A DNA stretch of 64,000 nt from Armatimonadota bacterium (lineage in GTDB: Bacteria > Armatimonadota > Fimbriimonadia > Fimbriimonadales > Fimbriimonadaceae), in assembly GCA_037138755.1 (NCBI GenBank), contig JBAXHT010000001.1:1211805-1275804 (forward strand). The letters are read 5' to 3'. The notes beneath the pieces are model-generated. The model did not search any database and was not told where the DNA came from. It worked only from the letters and a program-made list of their open reading frames with translations. Positions 11,085-44,376 of this stretch are shown one piece after another; within the stretch, counting starts at the first letter, position 1; the number at the start of each line of letters is the position of its first letter. A program made the position numbers and the translations under genes.

Positions 11085-11996
11085 ATGCGCACACTATCCC
11101 TCATTATCTTTACGATCGCACCGTTCATACTGCATGCGAACCAGTTACCGTTTACCATTACGTATGAAGTAGCTGTTGATCAGCCACGATCAGCCAAGCT
11201 TGGATCAGTTTCAATCACCACAGGGGGCGGCAATACTTTAATTGCCATTACGAATTCCGGGATAAACTCCAGCGTCTTCTATTCAAAAGAACTATGTGTT
11301 ATTCAGGAAGTGGAAAATCAATCTATCCTTGCCGAAATCAGACCGAGCCAGACAACAGGAAAATCAACGCTTTTGCCTCTACTTCCGTCTGAAATAATAA
11401 CGCTCAATTTAGTGAAACCTGAAAAGCGATCCACTGGAACTTCTTATTCGATTGCTGACCCAAGCGTAGTTGCATACGATGATGGGATTCCTTTCGAGCC
11501 AGCCGAGATCAAGCATCAAGTACTGTTGGGCGCGAAGCGGATGACTGAGATTCGCGTTTTACACGACAAAAAGTTATCAGAAACATGGTCTTACCTAGAC
11601 TACAGAATTGTAGGCGGAGTGGCTGTTCCTGGAAGAATCACTCATCATCGATTCAAAGCCGGAGGGTTGAACATTTCCGAAGATGATACTACGGAATGGC
11701 GACTAATTCAGGCAGATCAGATTCCTGCTAACAAGATTCCGACTGCGGAATCCTTTCTAATTGATGATACCACCGTCCAAGACAATCGTAACCCAGCAGA
11801 GCCATTCGCGTTTGCATTTCAAAAAGGAAGAGGTACACTCGAAGAACAATTACAACTAGCTCGTAGATTGAAGGTCAGTCGACAGGGGGATCGGAATTCT
11901 CCTGCGTCAGCGAGCCCGTTCGTTCCCATCCTGGTCGGCATCATTGGAACAGCGATAGGAGTAGCATCTTATCGTCGGCATCAGAAGCGAGCATGA
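11085..11996 (+). CDS. Secreted protein with C-terminal membrane anchor (cassette 2)
   Basis: 303 residues from the ATG at 11085, which begins a clean signal peptide (MRTLSLIIFTIAPFILHA). The beta-rich extracytoplasmic domain starts LPFTITYEVAV and includes WSYLDYRIVGGVAVPGRI. The C-terminus is a helix (SPFVPILVGIIGTAIGVASY) with a basic end. The layout matches the cassette 1 protein at 7447-8445. The stop overlaps the start of the ligase-like gene by 4 bp, so they are co-translated. A LolA-like bowl fold is possible but not demonstrated. Confidence 0.7.
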   Translation: MRTLSLIIFTIAPFILHANQLPFTITYEVAVDQPRSAKLGSVSITTGGGNTLIAITNSGINSSVFYSKELCVIQEVENQSILAEIRPSQTTGKSTLLPLLPSEIITLNLVKPEKRSTGTSYSIADPSVVAYDDGIPFEPAEIKHQVLLGAKRMTEIRVLHDKKLSETWSYLDYRIVGGVAVPGRITHHRFKAGGLNISEDDTTEWRLIQADQIPANKIPTAESFLIDDTTVQDNRNPAEPFAFAFQKGRGTLEEQLQLARRLKVSRQGDRNSPASASPFVPILVGIIGTAIGVASYRRHQKRA

Positions 11997-13177
11997 AGGC
12001 TTTCAAATCATGGAGAGCAAAACCTTTCTCACTTGTACTAATCATAAGTCTCTTGCTAGCATTCGGAGTAAGAGTTCCATCGACAATATCATTGTCTCAG
12101 CTTTCCAAGTATGTGCTCTTTCTGGGGGTATTGGGGACAGTTGCCACAATCGCCCTTCGATCTAGAGGGGATCCTAAACGGATAATCGCAGTCACCGCTC
12201 TCTCGAGTTACCCCATCGCATTGTTGCTAAGTGTCCTCACAACAGGTAAAGTTGGTCAGAGTGTGAGCGGTAGTTTTCTTCCGCTTCTTTGGATGCTGGG
12301 CCTGATATGTGGATCCCTTATTCCAAAAACTGTTGCTGAGCTTCCACTGATATGTGGAGCATTGTTCTTGTCGGTTTTTGCTGTATATGGGTGGTTAACC
12401 AAGACGAATGTTTTCGTCTCGGGTGATCTTTATCGAGCCCAAGCACTTGACGGGGGACCCCTTTCGCTGAGTTTCTTTGCGGGAGTCGCCTGCCTGACCG
12501 CCTTTAGTGTTGTCCGAACTAAACCGGAGGCGACGTCCTACGGAATAATCGGCTGGGTGTTGTTGAGTGTCGTCATAATCACCTTTACTCGGGCCGCGCT
12601 GCTTGGACTCACGGTAGGCGGTTTGATCTTGCAACTTGGTGCGTCGAAAGGGCAAAAGCTTCTCTATTATTCAATTGTGCTTGCATTGATATCTATATCG
12701 CTTCTTCGGAGCCAAGGAACTGCAAACGGCAGAAGTGCCATGGATTCTGCTCTAAGTCGCCCTCGCATTTGGTATTCAGCCGTATGCGCATTCATAAAGA
12801 GTCCAGTCACCGGAGTCGGTGCCGGGGAGTTCACGTATGCATACACAACCGAGGTCGGGGAAACAAAAACGCAACATGGATTGGCAGAACCGAAGAGCCT
12901 ATACTTGTTACCCATTGTGGAACTTGGATTAGTCGGACTCATTGCCGTATCTATTGGATCAGGCTCGCTTTACCTGCTTGCGCGTTCGCATTTGAACTTG
13001 GGAGATACCTTCGTGCCTGCGACGCTGTCATTTGTGGCTACCTATAGCTTTTTTGATACACCTGCATTTGCACTAGGAACATATCAAGGCACGGTCGTCT
13101 TAGGGTACTTGATTGGAGTCTCTTGCCAGCCGCATATCCAAGCTGAAACTTCTAACCAACAAGCCCCGCTAGTTTGA
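11993..13177 (+). CDS. O-antigen ligase/polymerase-like membrane protein (copy 2)
   Basis: 394 residues with about ten membrane helices and the Wzy_C-type region ALSRPRIWYSAVCAFIK followed by SPVTGVGAGEFTY (about residues 252-283), parallel to the same region in the paralogue at 5676-6851. Its start overlaps the preceding gene (ATGA), placing it in the cassette 2 operon: MauE-DsbA, Cys-rich peptide, anchored protein, ligase-like protein. Known activities are glycan ligation or polymerisation outside the inner membrane; PglL-like protein O-glycosylation is a possibility suggested only by context. The last 26 bases overlap the decayed integrase on the other strand. Confidence 0.8.
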   Translation: MKAFKSWRAKPFSLVLIISLLLAFGVRVPSTISLSQLSKYVLFLGVLGTVATIALRSRGDPKRIIAVTALSSYPIALLLSVLTTGKVGQSVSGSFLPLLWMLGLICGSLIPKTVAELPLICGALFLSVFAVYGWLTKTNVFVSGDLYRAQALDGGPLSLSFFAGVACLTAFSVVRTKPEATSYGIIGWVLLSVVIITFTRAALLGLTVGGLILQLGASKGQKLLYYSIVLALISISLLRSQGTANGRSAMDSALSRPRIWYSAVCAFIKSPVTGVGAGEFTYAYTTEVGETKTQHGLAEPKSLYLLPIVELGLVGLIAVSIGSGSLYLLARSHLNLGDTFVPATLSFVATYSFFDTPAFALGTYQGTVVLGYLIGVSCQPHIQAETSNQQAPLV

Positions 13178-19770: not shown

Positions 19771-20523
19771 TCACTGCTTGCCGCCAGTGAAGTTAAGAAC
19801 ACCAAAGCTTTCCATCAAACCTCGCTGACGAGACAAGAAGTGCAAAATGTTTACCCCTTTCTCCTGAGCCTCCGCAATAGAGTGAAAAGCTCTTGGCCTG
19901 GCGTTCCATACATATGGCAATTCAGCAACTTTAACTCGCTGACTTGCCAGTGCTCTCACAAGTGCTAGTTGGTCTTCGGCTCCAAACTTTTGCCACTCAG
20001 AATGCCATGCACGAAACAGGCGTTCTATCTTCTTACTTTTTTTAAAATAGAGAACCCCGCTGTTATAGTAGGGGTGTTCCAGCAAATTCAATTCCTTGGT
20101 GTAACGATACTCTGGCTCTCTACGCACGGGATCATTTGAGCTGTACTCAAGCACATGAGCTACCGTCGGATGGAGATCAATTGCCATTGCGATATCCGTG
20201 TACCACTTGATCGGAAGAGTCGCTACATTTGCAAGCGGTACTGTGTCACTATCTAGGAAGAGCGTCCTCCTAAATCCATATGTGTATAGTGATGTCTTAA
20301 ATGTGCGCGACTCGAAGCTACCAGCTCCACAAGAACTGTTGACGACTTCTATGCTCAAAGACTTCAGTTCCACATTGCAATTGGTAACTAATCTGACAGG
20401 GCCGGTATAGCCTGCTTTTCTAAGGTACGAAATACTATTCAAGCACAGATCAGTGTATTCGGCACCTATGCCAAGATAGAGCACCCCAAACCCAGCTGTA
20501 CTTTGTTTAAGTAGTGTGTTCAT
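19771..20523 (-). CDS. GT8-like glycosyltransferase in the lanthipeptide cluster
   Basis: 250 residues from the ATG at 20523, which overlaps the previous stop (ATGA). GT-A fold features are visible: TLFLDSDTVPL (the metal-binding DxD), YYNSGVLYFKK, AEDQLALVRAL and VNILHFL, an order typical of glycogenin-like GT8 and related nucleotide-sugar transferases. It is the last gene of the minus-strand operon lanA-lanC-lanB-GT2-GT8. Co-translation with the preceding transferase suggests sequential sugar additions, with the lanthipeptide the most obvious acceptor. That acceptor is inferred from context; a surface glycan cannot be excluded. Confidence 0.75.
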   Translation of the reverse strand: MNTLLKQSTAGFGVLYLGIGAEYTDLCLNSISYLRKAGYTGPVRLVTNCNVELKSLSIEVVNSSCGAGSFESRTFKTSLYTYGFRRTLFLDSDTVPLANVATLPIKWYTDIAMAIDLHPTVAHVLEYSSNDPVRREPEYRYTKELNLLEHPYYNSGVLYFKKSKKIERLFRAWHSEWQKFGAEDQLALVRALASQRVKVAELPYVWNARPRAFHSIAEAQEKGVNILHFLSRQRGLMESFGVLNFTGGKQ

Positions 20524-21278
20524 TTTGATCGCGTAAACATAGGCTTCCAACCGAGAGTAGAAACATGGCTTATTGCGGCATTTCTTCGATCCAAATGATC
20601 AATTCGTCGCGAAAGCGCGAAGTCTGCTGGTAACTCTTCTTTATCGACCCGGGTCTCTGGATCGTCCGAAGAGGGCGTGAGAAAACATCCAAGTTGGTTG
20701 TACATCTGCATCGCTGCCGCCAACAGTATATCGTCCTCAGAATCTGCTTGAGAGGGAATCCCCATGCGCCAACGCAACTGCCCCAAGGCAAAGAGCATCT
20801 CAGTTCGTACAAAATATGCGCGAATTACGACGTCAACTTCCTCGAAGTGGCTGGTGCGTGCTACTCTTCGGGGACGATACTCGCCATCGGTGTCCAACCG
20901 GCGACCAAGCTGACCCAGCACTCCGAATTCTTGCCTTGCCGACATCTCAAGGAAGTGCTCTATGCACCGCTTCCCGGGGAGTAGGTCGTCATCCAGGAAA
21001 AACGTGTACTCTCGATCAAAGGCGAATGTAGGGACGTAACGGCTGTATGCTCCCAAGTTTTGATTCCAACGAAAGACCCGCCTGACCGAATCAATCACCG
21101 AATCTCTTATTGCGTATTCCGGTTCGGGGTGGCAGTCGCAAAGAGTGATATCGCAAGCTACTGACTGGTCTTGAAGTGCCGAAATAATTGCCTCTACGTT
21201 TCGGGGCCTCTTCCAGTTGATTATCACGGCCTCAACTCGCGTCGTCGAAGTACTACATGTCTGATTAGAGGGTTTCAT
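20520..21278 (-). CDS. GT2-like glycosyltransferase in the lanthipeptide cluster
   Basis: 252 residues. The N-terminus VEAVIINWKRPRNVEAIISAL is the nucleotide-binding start of a GT-A transferase; YTFFLDDDLLPGK carries the DxD metal site (about residues 92-104). SQADSEDDILLAAAM is consistent with the acceptor-side acidic motif of GT2-type enzymes. It starts 68 bp after lanB on the same strand and overlaps the next gene by 4 bp. Glycosyltransferases are rare in class I lanthipeptide clusters, which makes this one notable. The protein is soluble with no membrane helix. Confidence 0.7.
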   Translation of the reverse strand: MKPSNQTCSTSTTRVEAVIINWKRPRNVEAIISALQDQSVACDITLCDCHPEPEYAIRDSVIDSVRRVFRWNQNLGAYSRYVPTFAFDREYTFFLDDDLLPGKRCIEHFLEMSARQEFGVLGQLGRRLDTDGEYRPRRVARTSHFEEVDVVIRAYFVRTEMLFALGQLRWRMGIPSQADSEDDILLAAAMQMYNQLGCFLTPSSDDPETRVDKEELPADFALSRRIDHLDRRNAAISHVSTLGWKPMFTRSK

Positions 21279-21346: not shown

Positions 21347-24300
21347 TTAAGAAAATTGCATTAATTTTAGCAGAGCAAGAGTTCTCCTGCATAGCCGTAG
21401 GTAACTCTCCTCTGTTGACCGAGTGGGTCCAAGAATCCGATTGAAGTGCATATGCAACAAAGATTGAATAATGGCCGAATGATCTCTTGTCAATGAGGGA
21501 CTTGGATCTAGCTGGCAGGCCTGTATAAGTTGATCTCTTCTTTCAATGGCTGCCAAGATCTGTTTGGTCTCATCGGTGAGATCCCGTTTCAGAATTAGCT
21601 TCGTGATCCTTGCGTTAACTCTCCTAAACATCTTCCCATCTTGAACACCTGGCGTGGGTAGAGCGCTGATAGCTGAGCTTATCGAGGAACCACATAGAGC
21701 GCACAAAAATAGAGCCGCACTCAGACATCTGACTGCAAGGGCGTCAGCGTAGCTGGCCTGTTTTGTGTATGAGTTAATGCTGATAGCACATAAACTGTCC
21801 AAGTGAAAAATCTCAAAGATCTTCTCACTGATGGCCTGGCCACCATATCTAAATGTTTCTTCATGGAAAGTCGTCAAATCAAAAAATGTTGCGCTCTCCT
21901 GCAAACACATTTCATGAGCCCAATTGATTCCGATCTCTTTGGCCGACTGTTCATCACTCTTCAGCATCGATCTAAAGCGTAGCCTGATATGAGGTTTGGG
22001 ATCAAAGTAGCGAACATAGAACCATTGACAGCCAGTTGGAAACCGCTTGGCAAGTTCAACAAGTTCCTCAATTAGGTTATCGATTGCGTACGCTGCACAA
22101 TACAAATGAATCGATGTCCAATCGGTACTTGGAAGATGCGAATTCCCCAGATCAGCTTCTGAAGGTAACTCCTTGTTGATCGGTACGTAAACAGGGGGTG
22201 AGTAATCCGAACGAAGTACAATAGGTACTACTAACTCGGCAGCATAGCTAAGACCATCTCGTCGTAACCAGCAGTTGGCAGAATTCTGGACGACTTCTTC
22301 TATATGGGCAATCTTATTTTTGCGAAGGACTCTTCTTAACTCTCGACACCCTCGAGGGGTCTCTAGATTGACTTGAAGTCGGCGATCTCCATCTATCAGA
22401 GTAACTGTACTCGGGACTGACATATCTTGCCGCCAAAGCTCCACCGAAGATAGACACTCTGTACACGTCTTGTGCCGCAAGATTTCGGGCGTGATTGTCC
22501 AGCGAGCAAGCGACAGAATTGTTCTGCCATACACTATGCGAGGTAGGTAAGGAAACCCACGTGCCGTACCCCAATCAAAGGCTTTTAATTGAGCCCGATC
22601 GTACATCGACAATTCGAGGAGCAACCTAGCGAGGACGTCAAGCCCATCGGGGCTAAGGACGTGGGTTGCATGAACAACAACTTCTTGGAGCTTGGCTTCA
22701 TAGTAGCGCACAAGGCGTAGCCTGTGCCCATCGTGCAGGAAAAAGAGATCTCTAAGCTTAACTACGTTCCGACCTTCACCAAACTGCGGTTCCAGGTATA
22801 GCGATCCTTCGTATTGACAAGGGCGTACTAAAACGTTCGCCATTCTTGGTTCAAGTGGTTCAGAGAACATCTCCAAGTGCAAAGAGTCCTGCGATTCGAA
22901 TCCGACTTTCCTTGAGATTTCTTGGAGCGCTTCAAAGCCTCCATTCAGGGTAAAGGCGAAGCGTCCAATTTGCCTACCCGCCTCAATTGCCCCGGTACCT
23001 GGGCCCACCAAAAGCTGGAAGTCACCATCATCTAGAGCTGCAGTATCTGCAGCCAGAACGGAGACGTTAATCTCGCATGAGTTTGACCAGAATCGCAGGT
23101 GAGAACCAGAGCTCAAAATCTCAATGTCTGCCTCATCGAGTATCACTGGATGGTTTCTGCCTCTGCGCAATGCTAAATCCTGGAGATGGCGCTGTCGATC
23201 GCCAAAGTTGGACTCAGACCTTTGCAACGTCGCTTCCCTTCGATCGAGGATCTCTATGCCAGTGTGCGGATCCACGGCCTGACAGACAGGCACGGGCCGA
23301 TCGCACCCGAAGTGCTCCAGGAAGCGCGATTGGTATGATTGTACTAAAGTAGTGTGATCTGAGCGGCTCATCTTGACAAGAGCTGTTGCAGCACGTGCTG
23401 CTTCTTCAGCAATCGATTCAGGTAACTCGATGACAAGGGGCCAAGCGGCGTCCACTTGAATTGAATCCAAAACAACGCTGGGCGGAAGGCGAAGTGGCCC
23501 ACCTGGGTTCGACAGGCACTCTTTGACTTGGACAAGATCGAGGCCAATCTGATGGATTTTGCCCTTAATCTCATCAGCAAAAATATCACCGAACGTTCTG
23601 ATTGTTTCTTCGAATGTTTTATCTACATCTAGAGTTGGGAAGGCATCAGGAATTAGAAGACCAAAATCTATCAGGCTGTTCAAAGTTGCTTCTACGCGGC
23701 TTTTCTCGATATGTGGGAACCTTTTCGTCGTCTCGTCAATGAGTTTCGGGAGTCCGATCTCGTGACGACACAGATCCAGCACGAAGTCGATTGCTTGTGT
23801 ACGCTTCAGTGATCGTGCCTCCAGTCCAGCACCTGGGGGCACGATAAAGATCCTACGACCACGCGAAACAGCCCAGGAGGATACACGGTATCGACGCCCG
23901 AGTCGAAAACCAGGATCCGTAGAAACTAACGCAAACAGGCGCCTGATTGCCCCGCCATCTACTCGGACTCGTCCAATCGGAGTCGGCTCGTCCCATTGGA
24001 CTTTTGTTGCAGAGTGCCACGAGCCGAGACACACTCCAGACCAGAAACCAAAAGGAGTACATCGACTCGACGCCCTCACCAAGTAATTCGTAAGCGATGA
24101 AACAACTTGTTCCTCCAGCCGTTTTTTGTTCCCACTCAGATAGTCTGTTATTTCCCCCATGAGTGCAGGTGAAGAAAGTCCGAGAGCCATTTGTACGATG
24201 GAAGTTGACAAAAGATCATAAAATTCTTTGCACTGTGCAGGATCTTCGGCGGTCGCAAGTGTTTCGGCAATTTCTATTGGCAATAGCGGCACTCGCGTCA

Positions 24301-24352
24301 GAAAAGGGCCAGAAACAGCAACATATTCAGGTCCGGGAGTGGCGTTATTCAT
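21347..24352 (-). CDS. lanB: Class I lanthipeptide dehydratase LanB, full length
   Basis: 1001 residues, the normal size for LanB with both domains fused. The N-terminal glutamylation domain carries LVRASSRCTPFGFWSGV; R93, R97 and T99 match the tRNA-Glu-dependent active-site residues of NisB in type and spacing. The C-terminal elimination domain (about 745-1001, SpaB_C) has WFYVRYFDPKPHIRLRFRS and LLHMHFNR, the conserved Arg and His of glutamate elimination. It dehydrates Ser/Thr of the precursor using glutamyl-tRNA. The start overlaps lanC by 4 bp. The symbol is a class name; the identity of the product is new to me. Confidence 0.93.
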   Translation of the reverse strand: MNNATPGPEYVAVSGPFLTRVPLLPIEIAETLATAEDPAQCKEFYDLLSTSIVQMALGLSSPALMGEITDYLSGNKKRLEEQVVSSLTNYLVRASSRCTPFGFWSGVCLGSWHSATKVQWDEPTPIGRVRVDGGAIRRLFALVSTDPGFRLGRRYRVSSWAVSRGRRIFIVPPGAGLEARSLKRTQAIDFVLDLCRHEIGLPKLIDETTKRFPHIEKSRVEATLNSLIDFGLLIPDAFPTLDVDKTFEETIRTFGDIFADEIKGKIHQIGLDLVQVKECLSNPGGPLRLPPSVVLDSIQVDAAWPLVIELPESIAEEAARAATALVKMSRSDHTTLVQSYQSRFLEHFGCDRPVPVCQAVDPHTGIEILDRREATLQRSESNFGDRQRHLQDLALRRGRNHPVILDEADIEILSSGSHLRFWSNSCEINVSVLAADTAALDDGDFQLLVGPGTGAIEAGRQIGRFAFTLNGGFEALQEISRKVGFESQDSLHLEMFSEPLEPRMANVLVRPCQYEGSLYLEPQFGEGRNVVKLRDLFFLHDGHRLRLVRYYEAKLQEVVVHATHVLSPDGLDVLARLLLELSMYDRAQLKAFDWGTARGFPYLPRIVYGRTILSLARWTITPEILRHKTCTECLSSVELWRQDMSVPSTVTLIDGDRRLQVNLETPRGCRELRRVLRKNKIAHIEEVVQNSANCWLRRDGLSYAAELVVPIVLRSDYSPPVYVPINKELPSEADLGNSHLPSTDWTSIHLYCAAYAIDNLIEELVELAKRFPTGCQWFYVRYFDPKPHIRLRFRSMLKSDEQSAKEIGINWAHEMCLQESATFFDLTTFHEETFRYGGQAISEKIFEIFHLDSLCAISINSYTKQASYADALAVRCLSAALFLCALCGSSISSAISALPTPGVQDGKMFRRVNARITKLILKRDLTDETKQILAAIERRDQLIQACQLDPSPSLTRDHSAIIQSLLHMHFNRILGPTRSTEESYLRLCRRTLALLKLMQFS

Positions 24353-25605
24353 TGAAGGCAGAATAGGCGCGCGGTCGGCGACCGGAGTACTGAAAGGCTT
24401 GATTCGATGGAAAGAAGTATCCCTGACAGACCGTCCAGGAGTCCGATTCCCGCCGGATCTCCAGATTCATCCCGATAACAGAATGGTTGGCTGGCATCAA
24501 TGAATGTTAAAATGCGCTCAAGTTCGAGGTGTAAGCCGCCTTGAAGACTTTCATCATCCCATCGTTCGGACAGTTGCTTCAGGATCAAGAGAAATCCAGA
24601 GTAACCATGGCAGAACGTTGGAGATGGTGTGCGTCGTTCACACAAACTACGCAGAAGAATCGCTTTTAAAGTTGTGCGGGCGAGATTTTCTAGAGCTCGA
24701 TCGCCAGTTACTATGGAGGCGTTTAGCAGAACCGCTGCGATTCCCGCCGGGCCATAACACCAGGCTGATCTAGTCGGGATTGTAGTTTCTTCCGCTGGTT
24801 CGAGGTGCACCGCACTCGGCCAAGAGGGACCATAAGAATCATAGATCACTTGCCCTGCAAGCCAATTAGCAAGTTTATCGATGGCTCGATCCATGCCAAT
24901 TAGCTCGTACCCCGCAACTCGGGCGATGGACAAAGTTCCGAGCATGCCTGCTACTCCATGAGCGAGTCCGCAGTTCAGAAGCCCGGATGGAAAACTCTCT
25001 CGCAGATACGCATCCGGAGTCTGAAAGGGATAACACTTCCAAGAAGGACTACTACCGTCGCTCTCGGCGAGTTTTACCATAAGCGTAAGCCACCCGACAA
25101 GTTCGTCTTGCTGTTCTCCACGGAGGTTACGACCGATTCGAGAGAGCGCAATGCCAGATAGCCCTGAAATGAGGTCCCACATTTCAGCTCTTAATCCATC
25201 GCTTCCTACCTCAGCAATCGCCTGCATCTGTTTACCTGCAAGTGCCCCAACTCTACGATCGAGTTGTTCAAGGAGAGAAGTATTATTGCAGTAGAAGGGC
25301 GTCTTAGACGCACAGAAAGCAACACCGGCCAGTCCGTCGAAGAGGCCCGATAGTCTCCATTGCCGAAGAGAAGTTGAACTTAAAATGAACCGGAGCAGCT
25401 TAGCGGCAAGTTCCCCAAGACTGGGATCTTCTCGTAGTTCCGCACATTGTCCGATTGTGAAGGCAACTCCGGTGAGCCCCCTTGACATCGAACAGTCTAG
25501 GAACTGCACTTTATCTGCGTCGCCGATGACACAATTGGCATAGTCTGCAATTCTTTCAACCAAAATATTGCGAACGCTCCTGAAAGCACCGTCTGAGAGC
25601 ATCAC
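24349..25605 (-). CDS. lanC: Lanthionine synthetase C-like cyclase LanC
   Basis: 418 residues, the usual LanC size. The zinc ligands are in place: AWCYG (C283) and FCHG (C332, H333), almost at the numbers seen in NisC (C284, C330, H331). NCGLAHGVAG (about 211-220) and repeated GLxG motifs (SRGLTGVAF, FDGLAGVAF, ISGLSGIAL, LDGLSGILL) build the double alpha-barrel. It catalyses Michael-type addition of cysteine thiols to dehydrated Ser/Thr, forming (methyl)lanthionine rings. It lies 18 bp after the precursor gene and overlaps lanB by 4 bp. Confidence 0.93.
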   Translation of the reverse strand: MMLSDGAFRSVRNILVERIADYANCVIGDADKVQFLDCSMSRGLTGVAFTIGQCAELREDPSLGELAAKLLRFILSSTSLRQWRLSGLFDGLAGVAFCASKTPFYCNNTSLLEQLDRRVGALAGKQMQAIAEVGSDGLRAEMWDLISGLSGIALSRIGRNLRGEQQDELVGWLTLMVKLAESDGSSPSWKCYPFQTPDAYLRESFPSGLLNCGLAHGVAGMLGTLSIARVAGYELIGMDRAIDKLANWLAGQVIYDSYGPSWPSAVHLEPAEETTIPTRSAWCYGPAGIAAVLLNASIVTGDRALENLARTTLKAILLRSLCERRTPSPTFCHGYSGFLLILKQLSERWDDESLQGGLHLELERILTFIDASQPFCYRDESGDPAGIGLLDGLSGILLSIESSLSVLRSPTARLFCLQ

Positions 25606-25623: not shown

Positions 25624-25821
25624 TCAGCCACACCCACAGGTATCACAACTCCGTGTACAGCCACAGGTATCACAACTCCGTGTACATCCGCAGGTATCAC
25701 AACTGCGTGTACATCCGCAGGTATCCCCGCTAGCATTCAAAGCCGCACCTGGCCTGCCAAGATCCTCTTCTTCCCACCAAATAGATACGTCGAATTCATC
25801 CTTTTCGTTAAGATCGGCCAT
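25624..25821 (-). CDS. lanA: Lanthipeptide precursor LanA with four TCGC repeats
   Basis: 65 residues from the ATG at 25821, chosen because GGAG lies 9 nt upstream; a GTG 15 nt earlier overlaps that site. The acidic leader contains DEFDVSIWWEEEDLG, where FDVS resembles the FNLD-type box recognised by LanB and LanC. The core begins near GD-TCGC and consists of a nine-residue unit CDTCGCTRS repeated, ending TCGCG: 11 Cys, 7 Thr and 3 Ser, nearly one thiol per dehydratable residue. No GG protease site is present; the likely cleavage lies around ALNASG. It is the first gene of the lan operon. Confidence 0.9.
   Translation of the reverse strand: MADLNEKDEFDVSIWWEEEDLGRPGAALNASGDTCGCTRSCDTCGCTRSCDTCGCTRSCDTCGCG
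25634..25725. repeat. 27-bp tandem repeat in the lanA core
   Basis: Units at 25634-25660, 25661-25687 and 25688-25714 plus a partial unit to 25725. Neighbouring units differ at one or two positions only. All differences are synonymous in the lanA frame (Arg CGC/CGG, Cys TGC/TGT, Gly GGA/GGC). Confidence 0.95.
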
Positions 25822-25931: not shown

Positions 25932-26801
25932 ATGGAGATTTTCTTGCTTGATCTTGGGCAGCCCCTTGAAGGAATTGGGGCAAGCGATAGAGTCCGTCTA
26001 GCCGTCTCGACTGCCCTCCAAATGGAGGAGATCAATGTCGACGGGTTTTGGGTAGGAGAACACCACGGCGAAGCAGCCTTTTCCGCTCCCGAAGTCATGA
26101 TCTCGTCAATTGCTAGCGCAACTAGTCGGTTAAGAGTGGGGTCTGGTGGAGTGTTGATTAGCATCCATAGCGTTTATGCCACTGCCGAGCGGTTCCGATT
26201 GCTTAGCGCTCTCTTCCCAAACCGGATCGAGATAGGAGTCGCTCGCGGAAAACCGCCTGACAACCTAATTAGTCAGTTCGGAGACTTCTCTAATGAAACT
26301 TACGAACAGCGAGTTAGGGGGCTCAGAACCGCTCTACTAGAGTCGCGTTCGGGTCCGCAGCCGAACGATTGCCAGGCTCCACCAATATGGCTTTTGGGAA
26401 TGGGTTCAAGGTCGGCATCCCTTGCTGGAGAACTTGGTGTCAACTACTGCCACGGCCTTTTTCTCAAAGGCGCGGAACCGTTGACTGCCGCTTATGAAAC
26501 ATACACTCGGGCGCTACCTGTAGGTTGCAATGGCTGCTTTGGCGTAGCGATGTCTGTTGCAATGTCTGGAGAGCAACCTGCTAGAATCTTTGCAGGCACT
26601 TATGCCAGGGTCAACCTTACAATTGACGAAGACCAAGTGATCGAAAACGCAATGTGCCTCGCCAGTGGCGTCGTTCTGTCGCGGACTGTATTCGTCTCCG
26701 CCGCAGCAAGCGCAAAGGCATATGCGTCAATCGCCAGTCACCTTCCAGGTGTTGCGGCAACTTTGGGTTGTTTCAAAAGCTCCGCTGTCACATGTAAATG
26801 A
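25932..26801 (+). CDS. Luciferase-like flavin/F420 oxidoreductase
   Basis: 289 residues, slightly shorter than the usual ~330 of MsnO8-type luciferase-like monooxygenases. Family blocks are visible: LALxD-style start MEIFLLDLGQPLEGI, FWVGEHHGEAAFSAPEVMIS (about 38-58), LRVGSGGVLI, FPNRIEIGVARG and PPIWLLGMGSRSASLAGELGV. FMN- or F420-dependent members act in many natural-product pathways; F420-dependent LanJ-type reductases that turn dehydroamino acids into D-amino acids belong to this superfamily. It is transcribed away from lanA over 110 bp, with AGGGGG as ribosome-binding site. A tailoring role in the lanthipeptide is inferred. Confidence 0.8.
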   Translation: MEIFLLDLGQPLEGIGASDRVRLAVSTALQMEEINVDGFWVGEHHGEAAFSAPEVMISSIASATSRLRVGSGGVLISIHSVYATAERFRLLSALFPNRIEIGVARGKPPDNLISQFGDFSNETYEQRVRGLRTALLESRSGPQPNDCQAPPIWLLGMGSRSASLAGELGVNYCHGLFLKGAEPLTAAYETYTRALPVGCNGCFGVAMSVAMSGEQPARIFAGTYARVNLTIDEDQVIENAMCLASGVVLSRTVFVSAAASAKAYASIASHLPGVAATLGCFKSSAVTCK

Positions 26802-28261: not shown

Positions 28262-29830
28262 TCAATCTGTTGTGAGGTCGGGTTCAGTAAGCAATGCGGT
28301 TCGGATTTTGTCCACCAAGGGCAGCCAAACATTAAATTCTCGAACTGGATGCCCTTCTTTGTAGCTCTGGAAGCTACTCTTCAGAGGTTCGAAAGCGATG
28401 ATTTGTCCGATGATTGGATCGGGCTCAATTTCCACGTTTTCCAGAGTGAGAAAGTAACTTCTGGCTAGTTGTCGCAACATGACTTGTCGCATCTGCGATG
28501 ACAAGTCTTCGAGGCATTGGGCTTGTTCGAGAAGAGCAAGTCTGTTTTCTATCTGCCTAGCGAGGGAGTTTTTAATAGTCGCTTCACGAGCGCTAGCTGT
28601 TTTCAGTTCTGTCAATTCGCTTTCGATCTGAGTCTTCAGTTCTTTGTACTCTGCTGCCTCGATCTCATCATCGAGGCGCATTTGATGAAGCCGCTTAAGG
28701 CGTCGCCCGAGCTTGGAGACCTTTTCTTTGGTTAGGTTCACAGATTGACCTTCCGCAGATTCAATTTTTTCGATGTATTTCTTGAATTCGGTCCCAGCCC
28801 AGGGGAGTAATTCGGGAGGTAGCTTAAACTGCATGATCGCTTGCCCAAGTCGGCGATCTAGTTCGGTCTCGGATACGCTACATTTCCTACAACCTCTCGC
28901 GCCCGTGCAGTGATAGTAAACGTAGTTTGCGACCCGGTTGGTGGTCTTATAGTGCTTCGTCTTGCGTTCCGCAGTAATTGAGCATCCACAATAGCGGCAC
29001 TTCAGTAGTCCAGCGTACGTGAAGTTGTGCTTAGAACGGTTCGATCTGAGTCTCCCTGATAGGATGTCATGGGCCCTATCGAACTCAGCTTTAGAGATCA
29101 TTGGCTGGTGAGCGCCTTGGTATGTCTTTCCTCGAAACTCAAATTTGCCGTAGTAGAACGGATCAGCGAAGGCTTTGTATAGTTTGCTCCGTGGTACGTG
29201 ACCACTTTGAAACAGATGTCGCATACCTAGCTCTTCTGCATATTTGACGGCTCTTGCTACGGTCGCATTGCCAGTAAGGATCAGCTCCCAACATTGGCGA
29301 AGGATTGCGAACTTGGCCGGATCGATCACAATTTCATGGGTCTCTTTGTTGTATCGATAGCCAATCGGTGGATGGGTCGGTTTCCAGCCACGCTCGGCCT
29401 TACCAATCATTCCGCGAATCGTGTTACGACGAAGATCTTGGATAAAGCTTGTCGCCATTCCGTTCTCGATGGAGATGAGGAGCGCACTATCATCCGGGTA
29501 GTAGGTTCGCTCAGGAGTTTTGATGAACTCAAGCCTCCCGCAATGCAGGAGGTGAGCAATTTGTCCGCCCTCCAACATGTTCCGGCTAAGGCGGTTCATG
29601 TGCCATACCAATAGACCAGCGATCCCGCCTGATTCAATCTTTTGAATCAGCTGCGAAAAGACTGGGCGAGTTCCCGGCTGTTTAGCCGACTTGGACTCTT
29701 CGAGAATCTCGGTAACGTGAATCCCATTTCGCTTGGCGAACTCTAGCAGGACCTTCTTCTGATCTTCAAGACTCTGAACTTGACGATCCTCGCTCTCGCT
29801 GGATTTGCGGATGTAGATAGCGACTTGCAT
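28262..29830 (-). CDS. Large serine recombinase
   Basis: 522 residues. The N-terminal resolvase domain has MQVAIYIRKSSESEDRQVQSL with the catalytic Ser at about residue 10, and WHMNRLSRNMLEG carries the helical Arg motif. The recombinase domain (about 160-280, GYRYNKETHEIV..., FADPFYYGKFEFRGKTYQGAHQPMIS), a zinc ribbon (CRYCGCSITAE ... CTGARGCRKC) and a long coiled coil (about 360-450) complete the normal layout. Such enzymes integrate and excise phages and elements at short att sites, or work in casposon-like and SCCmec-like elements. It appears intact. The small gene 29766-29969 overlaps its start. Confidence 0.9.
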   Translation of the reverse strand: MQVAIYIRKSSESEDRQVQSLEDQKKVLLEFAKRNGIHVTEILEESKSAKQPGTRPVFSQLIQKIESGGIAGLLVWHMNRLSRNMLEGGQIAHLLHCGRLEFIKTPERTYYPDDSALLISIENGMATSFIQDLRRNTIRGMIGKAERGWKPTHPPIGYRYNKETHEIVIDPAKFAILRQCWELILTGNATVARAVKYAEELGMRHLFQSGHVPRSKLYKAFADPFYYGKFEFRGKTYQGAHQPMISKAEFDRAHDILSGRLRSNRSKHNFTYAGLLKCRYCGCSITAERKTKHYKTTNRVANYVYYHCTGARGCRKCSVSETELDRRLGQAIMQFKLPPELLPWAGTEFKKYIEKIESAEGQSVNLTKEKVSKLGRRLKRLHQMRLDDEIEAAEYKELKTQIESELTELKTASAREATIKNSLARQIENRLALLEQAQCLEDLSSQMRQVMLRQLARSYFLTLENVEIEPDPIIGQIIAFEPLKSSFQSYKEGHPVREFNVWLPLVDKIRTALLTEPDLTTD

Positions 29831-31660: not shown

Positions 31661-34600
31661 TTACCCAAGAAACTGGGTTCCCAAGAGTTCATCAGGGTCA
31701 CGAATGCTCGCCGATTTACATAGTGTATCGATGATATTCAGGCAACGAATTCGGACATTTGGACTTGAGGTTTGCTCGTACAGCCTTACAACTGCTTCAG
31801 TGTTGCGCTCCATAAATCTACCTGTACGTTGGTTTTCCGTTGGATCGGAGGCCGCGACCAGCTGGCTCGTTCTTTCAAATGCGTCTAAGACCACCTCCGG
31901 CAACCTACCTGATGTGGCTTTTAGTAACTCGAAGAAGCCGAAAGCATCATCCTCGAATGCTCGACTTTTGATGTAAGCAGAGATCATTTCTGTGACTTGC
32001 TCAAACGTCGCCGAGTCCATGTCAGTAAAGCACCGCCCGGCCGCTCTTCGCACCGACGAGTCTTCATCATCAAAGGCCAATACGAGAAGCTTCGAACATT
32101 CGCCTAAAAATCGCTCGTCGGAAATCCAGTCGCTGGCAACATCTGCGATGCCTAGGCGCGCTAAAGCACCAGAACGCTTTGCTTTAGCCATAAGCTCTCC
32201 ATCGTCCTTGCCGGTTAGGTAAAGAAAAGTCGATAACTGCCCTCCGTGGCTGACCGCGTCTTTATCTTCTGACGTCAACATTCGCACTATCACGTCCCTC
32301 AGTAGCTCAAGATGAGTTTCCATCGCATAGCGAAGGAAAAATGAAACGTACCTTGAACCCAGCAGCTGATCTGAATCGATGGAAATGAGCTGGAAAAACA
32401 GTTCAACGGCTTGATCTCGATCTACGTTTAGGATACGTATCAATATGCTTGCAGCCTGAGTTCGCACAGCTGGTGACGGATCAGTTACAAGCGACTCAAT
32501 CGTGGCTTTTAGTTCTACGTATAATCCGGGGACATTCCGAATCACGTTTTGAACTGCGGTTGCAATCGCTCCTCTGTCTGAATTCAAGCCTACATTATCA
32601 AGATCTGTCTCAGAGCCCTCCTCCGGTAGTTTGATATTTTCGCCGGTTTCTCTCTCGAGTTTGATTAAGAACGCCAAGATATCCTGAGGAACACCTTCGA
32701 ATTCCATAGAGTCAAAACTGTGGCAAATTGCGCGACTTGCCTCTGAGCTACCGTACTTGCAGGCGATGCGTATCAGCCCCCAAAGAATATCTTCATCTAC
32801 GTCTTTGATCGATTTCACTTTGTAAAGAGCTTCTACAACGTAGCAACATGGTGCGCTTGCTGGAAGTCTGGCAAGCACAGATACGAGTCTGTAGGGATCA
32901 TCCTGCAACTCTTCAACCATGTGGCGCGCCAACTCTCGTTCCCCGCCCCGATCCCACCTTCGATCCTTTCTCTCGGGTAGCGAACACTTCTCGATTGCTC
33001 TTAACCACTGTTCATCTGAAAGGATGCCGGGATTTGCGTTAACTGGCGAGGTCGTGAAACGAGCCACAACTACCCCCTTTGGTCCAGCGGTTTCGGGGAT
33101 TCCAAACTTACGCTCCAACTCCTGCCATCGCCTAATCACATTAGGCGGATAAAGTGAAGTATCGATAGCCGAAAGCAATTGAAATTGAGAGAATCCAAGT
33201 GCTGACCCTCTCAAGCTGCTTAGTCGCCCCCGAGGATCATCCTTCTGCAGATATTCCCAAGACTCGTAGTGCTCGAGAACTGCTTCAAACAATCTTCCCA
33301 ACTGTACTTCAGTCAGGAAAGGCGTTATAGATGCGATCAGAAGCCTTGACTCCCAATTGTAGCAGTCTGACCAGGACTGTGACCTGGACGCGGGTACGGA
33401 TGTTAACAGCTCAACGGCCTGATTCGCGAATGCTTCTCCATTGCTATGCAACATGCGAACAAGAATCCAACAACAAACATCGAGATCAAGATTTGCTATC
33501 AGCTGATTGATATAGTCTGAACAAGTTTCTGGAGACTCTGCCCCAAGCTGTTGAAGCGAGAGAACTAGGCCCTCCAGAATATCATCTGACAAATCCAAGT
33601 GGGAACCGTACGACTTGATACACCAGATTGAGTCGGTAAGTAGTTCGTTTTTATACCGCTCCTGAACGTTCTCTCGGGCCAACGAAATGACAGTAGGTAG
33701 AAAGTAATTCGCAAAGCCACCAGGGCAACCCTCAGCAATTTTTAGTACATCCTCAGAGCTACCAAAACGGTAGGAAGAATAGACTTCTGGATCACTTTTG
33801 AACGGGTTTACGACATCTTTTGAACGCGCCTCATCTAGCACTCGTTTAAACCACCCCTCGAACACTTGCATTGCTTTAGCAGGTGAGCGTGTCGCCAATT
33901 CAAAAGTCATCATTCTGGTTTGTGAACCAAAGGGCATCTCATCGAGAGGAAGGAGTGCACGGTCAAGCATCTTCAGGTAGAGCTCGGCAAGTCCTTCCGC
34001 CTCGTCGAGTTCAAGGTAATGCAAAATCTTAGCTGCGTGGCTTGGTATCGGTTCTCTCAGGTCTAGCCAGGACTCCAAAATTGACGGCACGGCACTCGCG
34101 CGTTCTCTTGCCACACTCCAAACTAGATTTACAGCCAAATCTGCCGTTGTCTCGCTGTCCCCTTCTATCCATTTTTGCAATAACCCCTGTCCGTGTAGCA
34201 AATCGAACCAAGCCGGAGAGCGAAGAGCGGTCTCGCTCCAATGAGTCAGTGACCTATCGCCACTGTTCCGGCATTCCATGAGGACGTCCAGCTCCTCATC
34301 GCTTGGATCTGGCAGACTGCGTAGCCAATCAAAGATGCTCCGCTTGAGATGAAAGCGCACATTCTGGGTGCTGAGCAGCTTCTTAAGTGTCGTGATGTAC
34401 CTTCCGAAGTCTTCAGACCTCAAGAATGTAAGCACTTGACGTACCACGCCTCTGCTATGGAGCATTTGATCTTGATCTAGGATGTATCCGTAAAGATCTT
34501 CTCCAGAGTCGACAAAGTTCAGTGCAAAAACATAGTCGAAAAGGGATTCATGAAAGAACCCAATCATGCCTCTGGTATGACTCAGAATGCGCTCAGAGAG

Positions 34601-36181
34601 GAGAATATCAACCTCCATGCTGTATCGAGCTCTTAATGAGCTTTCCGACACTGACAGTGATTTGTTTGCCCGAAGAGTGCTCAAGAGAAGACCCACACAT
34701 TGTTCGACCCTCGCTCGAACCCCGTTCTGCGAGAGTTCCTTGCGCTTCGCGGACCAAAATGCTCCCAGCAACTCGTGCTCCGACCTAAAGGAGGTCGTTT
34801 CAGGCAAATCTGTGAAGATTTTCAAAAAGATTGGAGTTTTGAGGATGTTTAGCTGATTGGCGGACAGCCCACCTGACTCCTTTCCGGTCCGAGCAAGTGC
34901 GGCATTTACCTGGTCCCCGGTGAGTGTCCCGAGCTTGAGCTGAACCCCGATTCCACTCTTTTCATCAACGATTTTCCGTAGCCTGTCATCATTGGTCAAA
35001 TCGAATTCTCTACATGCCAAAACTATAAAACAATCTTCACGTCCCTTGACGTCCCGTAGTACCTGCTGTACAGATTCAAAAGCTCGAGGTAACCGACCAG
35101 ACGTGGTGCTCAATGCGTCTAACTGATCGATCAAAAGCAGTTTTTTTCGGCTGCTTCCCAATCCGTCCAATACTCGAAGTGGAGAATCAGGAAAGCCAAA
35201 CTCCTCACCGAGTTGCTTTTGAGTGTTGGGAGGCGCGTTTAGCCGATCCAGTCTGAGTCCCAATGCGAGCCAGCCTTCCTGAGTAGCAGATTCTAAAATT
35301 TGCGCACATACATTTGACTTGCCGCTGCCTGCTCCACCAGTGATGACAATAACCGATTTTTCGGATTGGGCTTTGAGTTTATCCAGCACCTCGCTGGCCT
35401 CGACTCGGTCGATACGCTCATCACCAATCATCATTTGGTGGATGGACTCTAAGTATTGCGAGTTTTGTTCGCTAATCGCAGCGAGAAGAGATTTCGGAAA
35501 GCTCCTCGTGGAGAGTTCGATTCCTAACTCATCCAGTTTCTGGTGCAACGAGACCAAGTCCCAATCTTGGTGCATTTCAGTTTGGGAAAGTTCCCTTAGC
35601 TTTAGCTCGAGCGATTGAGCAAAAGAACTATTCATCGTCAGAAGGTGACACCTGTCGCGGAGCATCTCACGCACCAACCTGTCAGGTCCACCGCGCACAG
35701 ATATTGCCCGCAGAAGTTGATAAGTTCTTTCGGCACTCAGCGCTGTCTTAGCGGCTATTTTGTTGAATTGCTCAGCTCGGCGTTTCACATTCAGATGGAA
35801 GCGTTTAAATTCGTCATAATTCGGAACGCTCCGAGCTTCTTCAGTCAGATTCCGAAGCTCATCCGACTCTCCCTGGCTGACAAAGACAAACTTTACTTCT
35901 GGCTCATTCTCAATAACGGTGGCAAACCCTTGAAAAACCCCTTCTTCAAGTAGTCTGGAAACATTCCAAGCACCCCTTGAGTGCTGCCTCTTGACCTGGT
36001 GATATTCAACTCCGCCCTCATTGCCTGTGAGTCTAAACTCAACAACACTATAGATGTCGCCCAGAGGTTCGAAGTGAATCGACTTGGCCTTCTCACTCAG
36101 AACCTGAAGCAAGCACAGGGCGGTCCATGTGTTTTCATAGTGATTACCAAGCTTTTCTGATTCTCCCCCAGAGAGTGCCAT
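31661..36181 (-). CDS. STAND NTPase with Cap4-like nuclease domain (Avs-like defence)
   Basis: 1506 residues. The N-terminal ~170 residues (GNHYENTWTALCLLQVL, GDIYSVVEF, GGVEYHQVKRQ) match the Cap4/PD-(D/E)xK-type effector, with D42 and Q62-V-K64 as likely active-site residues. A STAND-type P-loop domain follows: Walker A GGAGSGKS (282-289), Walker B LLLIDQLDAL (348-357), then a CREFDL sensor segment. From about residue 600 to the end helical HEAT/TPR-like repeats would form the target sensor. Known Avs proteins recognise phage proteins, oligomerise and cleave DNA. Carried alone in an island, as such genes usually are. Confidence 0.75.
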   Translation of the reverse strand: MALSGGESEKLGNHYENTWTALCLLQVLSEKAKSIHFEPLGDIYSVVEFRLTGNEGGVEYHQVKRQHSRGAWNVSRLLEEGVFQGFATVIENEPEVKFVFVSQGESDELRNLTEEARSVPNYDEFKRFHLNVKRRAEQFNKIAAKTALSAERTYQLLRAISVRGGPDRLVREMLRDRCHLLTMNSSFAQSLELKLRELSQTEMHQDWDLVSLHQKLDELGIELSTRSFPKSLLAAISEQNSQYLESIHQMMIGDERIDRVEASEVLDKLKAQSEKSVIVITGGAGSGKSNVCAQILESATQEGWLALGLRLDRLNAPPNTQKQLGEEFGFPDSPLRVLDGLGSSRKKLLLIDQLDALSTTSGRLPRAFESVQQVLRDVKGREDCFIVLACREFDLTNDDRLRKIVDEKSGIGVQLKLGTLTGDQVNAALARTGKESGGLSANQLNILKTPIFLKIFTDLPETTSFRSEHELLGAFWSAKRKELSQNGVRARVEQCVGLLLSTLRANKSLSVSESSLRARYSMEVDILLSERILSHTRGMIGFFHESLFDYVFALNFVDSGEDLYGYILDQDQMLHSRGVVRQVLTFLRSEDFGRYITTLKKLLSTQNVRFHLKRSIFDWLRSLPDPSDEELDVLMECRNSGDRSLTHWSETALRSPAWFDLLHGQGLLQKWIEGDSETTADLAVNLVWSVARERASAVPSILESWLDLREPIPSHAAKILHYLELDEAEGLAELYLKMLDRALLPLDEMPFGSQTRMMTFELATRSPAKAMQVFEGWFKRVLDEARSKDVVNPFKSDPEVYSSYRFGSSEDVLKIAEGCPGGFANYFLPTVISLARENVQERYKNELLTDSIWCIKSYGSHLDLSDDILEGLVLSLQQLGAESPETCSDYINQLIANLDLDVCCWILVRMLHSNGEAFANQAVELLTSVPASRSQSWSDCYNWESRLLIASITPFLTEVQLGRLFEAVLEHYESWEYLQKDDPRGRLSSLRGSALGFSQFQLLSAIDTSLYPPNVIRRWQELERKFGIPETAGPKGVVVARFTTSPVNANPGILSDEQWLRAIEKCSLPERKDRRWDRGGERELARHMVEELQDDPYRLVSVLARLPASAPCCYVVEALYKVKSIKDVDEDILWGLIRIACKYGSSEASRAICHSFDSMEFEGVPQDILAFLIKLERETGENIKLPEEGSETDLDNVGLNSDRGAIATAVQNVIRNVPGLYVELKATIESLVTDPSPAVRTQAASILIRILNVDRDQAVELFFQLISIDSDQLLGSRYVSFFLRYAMETHLELLRDVIVRMLTSEDKDAVSHGGQLSTFLYLTGKDDGELMAKAKRSGALARLGIADVASDWISDERFLGECSKLLVLAFDDEDSSVRRAAGRCFTDMDSATFEQVTEMISAYIKSRAFEDDAFGFFELLKATSGRLPEVVLDAFERTSQLVAASDPTENQRTGRFMERNTEAVVRLYEQTSSPNVRIRCLNIIDTLCKSASIRDPDELLGTQFLG

Positions 36182-36469: not shown

Positions 36470-37624
36470 CTAGTCGGGGGTTGATCTAATCACTGTGTCA
36501 GCAAGTTCCACTTCAGCGAGCCATCCGTGATAGAAATCTTCGGCGTCGAAACAGTTGTCCGAAAGCACTCGAAGATGCCTAGTCGCCTTATCCAGATTTC
36601 CCGACTGGATCATGATTCTCGCCTCGACTATGCCGCACGATTCTAGTCCTTGTAGGTTCTTGACGTCTCCAGCCCGAAATGCCTTGATGAGCATCTCCTC
36701 GGCGGCAAACGTATCTCCAAGCCGGATGAGAACTCTTGCCAACAGAAATTGAATACCGAATCTCTTTTGATAACTCTTAGCTGGCACGAGCTCCTGACTC
36801 AACGTATCATGAAATGTTGCGAGTTCAGCCTCCTCAATTAGCACAACTCCTCGCTCGTCTAGTGTTAGACGTGTTGCAATCAGCGATCTTCTCGCAAACG
36901 CGTGAGTAGCCGTGGCGTACTTCGCCTCATTTCGCTCCTCAATCAAGTGTAGGGCGGACTCTATCCAAGCCATTATTCTGGTGACGCTGGCAACCTCAAC
37001 ATCTGGGAGGTGAACTAGTACTCTGAGCGTCTGAAGCCTTGCAAACACCATTCTTGGGTAGTCCCGATTTACTTCTGCCTCGGCAAAGATCGTCTCGGCA
37101 ATCTGGGCGGCCGAACCCGGTCTGTTCAACTTGTGATAGAGCCAGAACGCCCTGTCAAGGATCAGTTGCCGGAATTCACCCTCCTTGACCACTTCGACCC
37201 CAACCTGGATCAACTCAGTGGCTTGTATGAGCCTCTCTTCACGGATCAACCGGTCAACTCGTTTCAGGCTTGCGACAGTGAACTTAGCTGGCACTGTACC
37301 GCGCAACTTCTTGCCTCCTAGCTCAAGTCCGAAGCACTCGCGGTTCCATGCAATCAAGATTTGACGCTTCGCTTCTTTGCTCGGGATGAACTCTAAGAGC
37401 GTAGCCACTGTTTCTGGCTTCAGGAGCTCCGGCTTGCCCAGGATTTGCGAGATTCTGCCCTTTGTAACACCAAGGGTATCTGCGATGTCACCGTCCTGGA
37501 GACAGTCGTGGTGAACCTGAAAAGCCTCTCGAACTAGGTTTGCAAATGAACCTGGATCATGGGGCAGTTTAGCCCGGGCTAAAAAATCGGGGTCTTCACC
37601 TTTGGGGATTCTGGACGCTGCCAT
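36470..37624 (-). CDS. HTH-TPR regulator of the element
   Basis: 384 residues. An N-terminal helix-turn-helix (GDIADTLGVTKGRISQILGKPELLKPETVATLLEFI, about residues 44-80) is followed by ~250 residues of helical TPR-like repeats (LIREERLIQATELIQVGVEVV, LARVLIRLGDTFAAEEMLIKAF, MIQSGNLDKATRHLRVL). This layout is that of peptide-responsive or stress-responsive regulators. It is divergent from the TraG-like ATPase gene with about 25 bp between the starts, so it probably controls that operon and itself. Confidence 0.75.
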   Translation of the reverse strand: MAASRIPKGEDPDFLARAKLPHDPGSFANLVREAFQVHHDCLQDGDIADTLGVTKGRISQILGKPELLKPETVATLLEFIPSKEAKRQILIAWNRECFGLELGGKKLRGTVPAKFTVASLKRVDRLIREERLIQATELIQVGVEVVKEGEFRQLILDRAFWLYHKLNRPGSAAQIAETIFAEAEVNRDYPRMVFARLQTLRVLVHLPDVEVASVTRIMAWIESALHLIEERNEAKYATATHAFARRSLIATRLTLDERGVVLIEEAELATFHDTLSQELVPAKSYQKRFGIQFLLARVLIRLGDTFAAEEMLIKAFRAGDVKNLQGLESCGIVEARIMIQSGNLDKATRHLRVLSDNCFDAEDFYHGWLAEVELADTVIRSTPD

Positions 37625-37649
37625 ACGCTCTTACTCAAGGATAGACGAC

Positions 37650-39005
37650 ATGGTAGTTAGAGCAGACGGAAAACCCCTCGGGCACTGGATCGGAATACGA
37701 AAAGGATGGCAGGAGATGGGCTTGCCACTGGGCGAAGTGCTGGTTCCACTCCCGATCTCCTTGATGAGAACCCACAGCCTACTGATTGGTGCTACAGGTT
37801 CAGGAAAGTCCACCGCCATCCACCACTTAATTGCGCAGGACGTACTCACTGGACACCCATTTATCGTCCTCGACATGCGCGGGGACCTCGTTAATGCAGC
37901 TCTTGAAATCTGTGCTGGTTACGTTCCGCCATCCAGCATTGCCCTCTTCGACCTGAGAGAAAAAGAGAGACCTCTCGGATTTAACCCACTCTTTGGATCT
38001 GGGGAACCGCACTTCCGGGCACTGGGCGTCCTAGACGTGGTTGCGAGTGAATCTGACTCATGGGGAGTGCAACTCGCAGAAAGTTTACGCATGGCGGTTA
38101 TGCTTCTCGCGGAAACTGTTTGCTCACTCACCGACATTGAGAAGCTGTTTTTCAACGCTGGCTTTCGAGAACTCCTCATCTCAAAGTGCCAGAACGAACA
38201 AGTCGTAGGATTCTGGAATCGCTATGGCGCACTGAACACGGATCGTCAGCTCGCAATGGCGACGCCGGTGCTCAACAAGGTCAGCATCCTCTTTGCTTCG
38301 GAGTCTCTGCGACGAACACTTGGGAACCCCAAGCCTCTTGATCTCGGTCGTCATCTCAATCAGCCAGGCAGCGTGACCCTCATCTCCCTTGCCGCTGATG
38401 AACTCCACTCAGCAGGGCGCATGTTCGGCTCCATGATGCTCTCCAGCATCACCAGAGAGGTTTTCAGCCGCGTAAACATCCCCGAAGGCAAGCGGAATCC
38501 AGTTCACCTTTATGTCGATGAATTTGAGCATTTTGGAACGAAGGAGTTTGAGAACATCCTCGCTGAAGGTCGCCGCTTTGGACTGAGCCTCATTCTCGCT
38601 CACCAGACTCTCAGTCAGTTGAATCCGAAAATCCGGTCGATGATTCTCAACAATGTGGGGGTCAAGTTGGTGTTCCGCACCGGGCGCGAAGATGCCCAGG
38701 TTTTGAGCAAAGACCTCTGCGGCGATCCAAAGGCTTTGGATCTCACACAGCTTGCCACGGGTGAAGCAATTCTCTCGACAAGGCATGAGGGTCCAACCGT
38801 CATCGAAATCAACGCCCCGCTCTTCAAAGATGTTGGACGCAGAAGTTACGAGGCCGAAGAGTTCAGTAGGACGATCAAGGCACGTAATCCGGACTGGACC
38901 ACCCATGCTCCCATCATCGTCCCTCAACCGAAATCGGAGTCGGCCCCGGTCGTCCAGCCCGCACCCGACGCTGGGCACAAGGCTGACCTAGGAGACTGGC
39001 TATGA
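37650..39005 (+). CDS. TraG/VirD4-like DNA-transfer ATPase
   Basis: 451 residues from the ATG at 37650 (AGGA 8 nt upstream; the frame opens earlier at 37602 inside the divergent gene). Walker A GATGSGKS at about residues 47-54, Walker B LYVDEFEHFG near residue 290, then ILAEGRRFGLSLILAHQTLSQL and RSMILNNVGVKLVFRTGREDAQVLS, the C-terminal core of type IV coupling ATPases and HerA/TraM-recognition proteins. No other conjugation gene is nearby, so the element may be mobilisable only, or the protein may act in its replication or partition. Confidence 0.8.
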   Translation: MVVRADGKPLGHWIGIRKGWQEMGLPLGEVLVPLPISLMRTHSLLIGATGSGKSTAIHHLIAQDVLTGHPFIVLDMRGDLVNAALEICAGYVPPSSIALFDLREKERPLGFNPLFGSGEPHFRALGVLDVVASESDSWGVQLAESLRMAVMLLAETVCSLTDIEKLFFNAGFRELLISKCQNEQVVGFWNRYGALNTDRQLAMATPVLNKVSILFASESLRRTLGNPKPLDLGRHLNQPGSVTLISLAADELHSAGRMFGSMMLSSITREVFSRVNIPEGKRNPVHLYVDEFEHFGTKEFENILAEGRRFGLSLILAHQTLSQLNPKIRSMILNNVGVKLVFRTGREDAQVLSKDLCGDPKALDLTQLATGEAILSTRHEGPTVIEINAPLFKDVGRRSYEAEEFSRTIKARNPDWTTHAPIIVPQPKSESAPVVQPAPDAGHKADLGDWL

Positions 39006-44156: not shown

Positions 44157-44376
44157 CACCTGGTGCGGACAGAAGAGTCCTTTGTGATATGACTTTCACT
44201 TACTCTTACTGACCGCAAATCTGTTCAACGAAACAAGAAGTAACAAGATGCAAACCCCATGTTCGATCAGGACAAGATTTCAACCAAATGTGACGGGCTG
44301 AGAGACCAACTGAGAGACTTGAATTTTCTTTGTTCGCCTACCGAACCTTGGAGATTGGTTTTTGAACCTGAAAAGA

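Follow-up and report, generated by a model that had tools for sequence, protein, structure and literature searches.

A 65-residue open reading frame on the minus strand of the window (the whole stretch of 64,000 nucleotides analysed here) is very probably the precursor of a class I lanthipeptide, and we think it fairly likely that, as LanA, it is converted by the adjacent LanB and LanC into a single product with 11 thioether rings. The frame (lanA, 25624..25821) runs from an ATG at 25821 to a stop at 25624 and is preceded by a ribosome-binding-like GGAG, 8 nt 5' of the ATG. Its product is MADLNEKDEFDVSIWWEEEDLGRPGAALNASGDTCGCTRSCDTCGCTRSCDTCGCTRSCDTCGCG. Translation and the repeat and pairing analysis divide this peptide into a leader (residues 1-30) and a core (residues 31-65). 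The leader contains, at residues 10-13, the FDVS-type box described by the first-pass annotation; this stands for the FxLD/FNLD box and has Ser rather than Asp or Asn at its fourth position. The assignment to class I follows from the leader box, the adjacent LanC and the full-length LanB. A small peptide with an F-x-(L/I/V)-x leader box and a core of Ser, Thr and Cys, encoded beside lanBC, is what a class I cluster calls for, and the earlier proposal of a lanthipeptide precursor at this position is borne out by the 65-residue frame and by the lanC and full-length lanB genes directly after it. The search of lanthipeptide precursor sets that had been suggested gave no match to the curated Pfam and NCBIfam precursor models (FDLD, FxLD, elgicin, gallidermin/nisin), which delimit subfamilies and not class I itself. 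A tblastn search of plasmids and phages for homologues of the precursor returned weak matches only, the best (E 0.02) to unrelated phage genes. The DNA pattern for CDTCGCT was met 18 times in viral contigs, always as a single, non-tandem match, and these were taken as chance.

Both modification enzymes appear to be intact. LanC, a lanthionine cyclase (24349..25605, minus strand), matches PF05147 (7.6e-37) and the PDB entries 8byk and 2g02 (NisC), and the zinc and active-site motifs GLAHG, WCYG and FCHG are present. LanB (21347..24352, minus strand) is a full-length class I dehydratase that has both the glutamylation and the elimination domain (PF04738, 9e-110; PF14028, 7e-29) and NisB/MibB-like matches in the PDB. 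Its residues R93, R97, T99, D132, R790, R792, R835 and H967 are conserved with other LanBs and correspond to the glutamylation and elimination residues of NisB. The window thus encodes two parts expected of a class I cluster, a LanB with both domains and its catalytic residues and a separate LanC with the zinc-ligand motifs. The genes are contiguous on one strand in the order lanA-lanC-lanB, with lanC starting 18 bp after lanA and overlapping lanB by 4 bp. No LanT exporter or LanP protease was recognised in the operon or among the scanned open reading frames of the genomic island in which it lies, and no C39 peptidase was found in the genome; LanT and LanP are common in class I clusters, though not obligatory.

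The core contains a 27-bp tandem array (25630..25725, minus strand), for which Tandem Repeats Finder reports 3.6 copies with 94% matches and a score of 157, as against 46 for the runner-up array in the window. The first-pass annotation had described a nine-residue unit repeated in tandem with no spacer. This stands, but the phase given for it, CDTCGCTRS, reads better as TRSCDTCGC. From Ser31 the core is SGDTCGC-(TRSCDTCGC)x3-G, so that 11 Ser/Thr face 11 Cys in 35 residues; the earlier count of 11 Cys against 10 Ser/Thr had overlooked Ser31. The DNA copies of the unit diverge mainly at synonymous codons (CGC/CGG, TGC/TGT, GGA/GGC/GGG), and the sole amino-acid change inside the array is Cys to Gly in unit 1. 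Because the differences between copies are mostly synonymous, the peptide sequence has apparently been kept, as would be expected if selection acts on the peptide; the changes counted are, however, few.

There is exactly 1 perfect matching of all Ser/Thr of the core to downstream, non-adjacent Cys, whatever spacing is allowed, and it uses gaps of 2 or 3 residues only, which give the usual lanthionine ring sizes. Pairing in either direction with gaps of 2-4 again has 1 solution, and when adjacent pairs are permitted at any distance there are 128 matchings. None of 200,000 shuffled cores could be fully paired with a spacing of 2-3 residues, but the fairer figure is that 2.4% of permutations of a single unit give a closed pairing, since the units are copies of one another. 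The two ends of the array are also informative. Unit 1 has Gly at the position where, in each later unit, a Cys completes the ring begun at the Thr of the preceding unit, and a Cys there would be an orphan; the final unit stops ahead of a Thr that would have no Cys partner. Both departures from perfect repetition are thus precisely those required for full pairing. With the ends adapted in this way and no residue left over, tandem duplication could alter the number of units and still leave the pairing intact.

The matching predicts that each TRSCDTCGC forms three overlapping thioether rings (T1-C4, S3-C7 and T6-C9) and that the first half-unit, SGDTCGC, forms a bicycle (S1-C5 and T4-C7). The pattern as drawn may well be correct, though we stop short of calling it probable. 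In the proposed pathway, LanB would use the tRNA-Glu route to dehydrate the 11 core Ser/Thr, and LanC would then join each of the 11 Cys thiols to a dehydrated residue, forming one bicycle together with three interlocked tricycles of identical structure. Removal of the leader would leave one rod-like product with 11 rings and no free Cys, to be released and exported by some protease and exporter; we infer that this product is secreted and has an antibacterial-type function. Such a lanthionine ladder, with every core Ser/Thr and Cys bridged, is put forward a shade more tentatively than the pattern itself. The suggestion in the first-pass annotation of a string of identical rings suits this model, as a prediction from sequence.

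A quite different explanation is that the Cys-rich peptide is active unmodified, for instance as a metallothionein-like metal-binding or a disulfide-bonded peptide, and that LanB and LanC act on another substrate. The density of Cys (11 in 35 residues), the CGC motifs and the lack of a match to any Pfam or NCBIfam family would suit such a peptide. We nevertheless judge this to be most improbable, given that lanC and lanB come directly after the frame, that its leader holds a LanB-type box and that its core offers one Ser/Thr for each Cys at ring-compatible spacing; moreover, the genome has no lanB or lanC besides those of the window, and no better precursor was found within the island.

The same pairing bears on the second suggestion of the first-pass annotation, that several products might arise from one peptide. 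The preferred pairing leaves four bonds of the core outside the predicted rings (C7|T8, C16|T17, C25|T26 and C34|G35). With the C|T junctions between units free of rings, a protease cutting there could in topological terms release the three TRSCDTCGC tricycles as identical nine-residue peptides. There is, however, neither a spacer nor a recognition or cleavage motif between the units, and the operon has no recognisable protease gene; all Arg and Asp residues of the core fall within predicted rings. The adaptations of the end units would be expected for one continuous product. The suggestion is therefore unsupported, and we consider a multi-core precursor highly improbable.

A stronger challenge to the single 11-ring product is that a genuine class I precursor is modified incompletely or otherwise, giving about 7-10 rings, with some Ser converted to D-Ala by a luciferase-like enzyme or left as Dha/Dhb and with free Cys or disulfides. 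Lanthipeptides are often only partially dehydrated, and LanC can direct non-nearest pairing, both of which count against the 11-ring model. Elgicins lose just eight water molecules from a Ser/Thr-rich core, a product with eight dehydrations (PMC3337247). A candidate for the reducing enzyme is encoded divergently from lanA with its start 111 bp away (25932..26801, plus strand). This MsnO8-like oxidoreductase matches PF00296 (5e-21), TIGR03558 (4e-39, under the cut-off) and the PDB entry 4us5. PF00296 is also the family of the LanJC enzymes, by which Dha is reduced to D-Ala (PMC7268733). It is possible that the oxidoreductase is a LanJC-type reductase, or it may be unrelated. LanJC activity would remove some Dha by reduction, so that fewer than 11 rings could form; conversely, formation of all 11 rings would leave it no Dha. 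Against incomplete modification, the exact 11:11 stoichiometry and the compensating changes at the ends would be pointless if many residues remained unpaired, and the luciferase-like protein is only a partial MsnO8-type match below the cut-off. We regard incomplete modification as the less likely reading, though one to be taken seriously. The luciferase-like protein has no family match past residue ~196 (the last ~90 residues, its C-terminal third), and the gene may be shortened or decayed; inspection by eye revealed no frameshifted remainder downstream.

Two further genes, both GT-A-like, may contribute to the final structure. Putative glycosyltransferase gene A (20520..21278, minus strand) begins 68 bp downstream of lanB and encodes a weakly GT2-like protein with an FLDDD motif (PF00535, E 0.011, below the cut-off). 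It overlaps gene B (19771..20550, minus strand), whose product resembles GT8/nucleotide-diphospho-sugar transferases and has an FLDSD motif (PF01501, E 0.0016, also below the cut-off). Their possible role as tailoring enzymes, adding sugar to the lanthipeptide, would complement the 11-ring model and not replace it. The shared strand, the proximity to lanB and the mutual overlap of the two genes point in this direction, and glycosylated lanthipeptides occur in other classes, for example NAI-112 and cacaoidin (PMC10373908). On the other hand, both family matches fall below the cut-off, a single-sequence fold of protein A is unusable (pLDDT 33), no homologue of these proteins was found beside other LanBs, and the 11-ring model leaves no free Ser, Thr or Cys. 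Gene A is absent from 60 relatives. Protein B is 30.6% identical to a Kovacikia plasmid protein, alongside which no lan genes were found. On balance glycosylation seems doubtful.

A scan of 80 LanB loci revealed repeat cores on several separate branches. It had been stated that class I precursors usually have one non-repetitive core; this needs correction, because repeat cores are found in precursors of the elgicin/penisin family (five-residue units) and in an alphaproteobacterial lanA (four-residue units). The LanB tree does not unite the three types, namely the elgicin-type five-residue cores (Paenibacillus, Longirhabdus and Vallitalea), the alphaproteobacterial (TCxx)n and the window's nine-residue core. 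The elgicin/penisin family (NF033457, Paenibacillus elgii) resembles the window's system in being class I, with an FDLD leader, LanB and LanC, and a core of short tandem Cys units (CYSSx). It differs in having a five-residue unit, 7 Cys against an excess of Ser/Thr (13) with no 11:11 pairing, and a lanB that is distant in the tree. The P. elgii control matches NF033457 at 1.1e-39, whereas the window peptide does not match. In Paenibacillus sp. MZ04-78.2, lanB is preceded by four consecutive lanA paralogues with repeat cores (L028:6780-7825), whose units differ (CYSSx, CFSSx, CITSx and one that is more divergent). The alphaproteobacterial example, from the metagenome-assembled genome REEB62, shares with the window the order lanA-lanC-lanB, a tandem Cys/Thr core and a similar leader box, EFDID. 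Unlike the window's precursor, its lanA has a four-residue (TCxx)n unit, 16 Cys and a Tat-like N-terminal segment; its LanB is 26% identical to that of the window, and the system is uncharacterised. This candidate lanA (L007:6187-6570) is followed immediately by lanC and lanB. Its N-terminus is twin-arginine-like, and it gives weak matches, each under the cut-off, to the models for FxLD lanthipeptides and for Cys-Xaa-Xaa-Xaa repeats.

The closest analogy in ring topology is with nisin A, in which TATCHC forms the interlocked rings D and E around T-C-x-C. The SCDTCGC of the window is predicted to interlock in the same way, and the TCGC of the bicycle has this form; nisin, however, has five rings in a non-repetitive core, and the window's motif would be present in four copies, accompanied by an additional ring that links. 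The precursors of nisin, of the elgicin type and of Dictyobacter have Ser/Thr in excess over Cys, unlike the window core. Eleven rings, if formed, would exceed those of any characterised lanthipeptide in a survey that gives seven as the known maximum (geobacillin I) and eight as the highest prediction (a Tannerella peptide), and that notes modular duplications (PMC11251773). A large number of rings may not by itself set the window's peptide apart, since the core of the Dictyobacter candidate (L008:5014-5229, upstream of lanC and lanB), which is non-repetitive, holds 12 Cys and 15 Ser/Thr. The systems searched contained no match to the nine-residue, three-rings-per-unit, fully stoichiometric design. 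Repeat cores as such were already known; what is new here is the exact stoichiometry together with ends adapted to the repeat. If the model is right, the gene encodes an unusually ring-dense, antibiotic-like peptide, a rod of exact repeats with almost complete bridging. How LanB and LanC deal with a repetitive substrate would then have a natural test case, and the rod could serve as a modular scaffold, its length governed by the number of repeats.

Searches of relatives and of 291 genomes of the phylum, by BLAST and with the Pfam model, found no other LanB above the Pfam cut-off, and the identity of the window's LanB to any relative found is at most 29%. It is thus apparently the first LanB of its phylum (1 over the cut-off in 291 genomes), and it is carried on a mobile island. 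Pilin-like sequences suggest that the phylum is Armatimonadota. The LanB tree pairs the window's LanB with that of an Eremiobacterota genome (support 0.94). As the two branches are very long, we do not rely on this grouping; the candidate lanA of the Eremiobacterota genome is non-repetitive.

The lan operon is cargo of a mobile island inserted at tRNA-Val(GAC). A 47-bp exact repeat of the 3' end of this tRNA gene is found at 44375-44421 and at 1211510-1211556 of the contig (G000:C1), about 250 bp to the left of the window, and these direct repeats bound an element of ~44.7 kb, of which the window holds positions 1-44451. Most of the island has a G+C content of 0.46-0.52, with a single 2-kb bin at 0.54; beyond its ends the values are 0.525-0.57. 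The island encodes a tyrosine integrase (40279-41415), a coupling-protein-like ATPase (37602-39005) and a large serine recombinase (28262-29830). In the closest relative the tRNA and the right flank are conserved, and the stretch compared on the far side of the tRNA has no similarity to the island; since the left flank of this relative is on a different contig, the locus is only a candidate empty site. Elsewhere in the island, a 1506-residue NTPase with HEAT repeats (31661-36181) matches PDC-M54A, a candidate defence model of PADLOC (3e-26), has a weak match to Avs2, and is probably an anti-phage defence gene. The segment 5676-13177 may contain parallel modules, with Cys-rich exported small proteins (7082-7447 and 10636-11028), DsbA/thioredoxin-like genes near them (8393-9100 and 9467-10621) and two O-antigen-ligase-like genes, one with a Wzy_C match (11993-13177) and one recognised by eye only (5676-6851).
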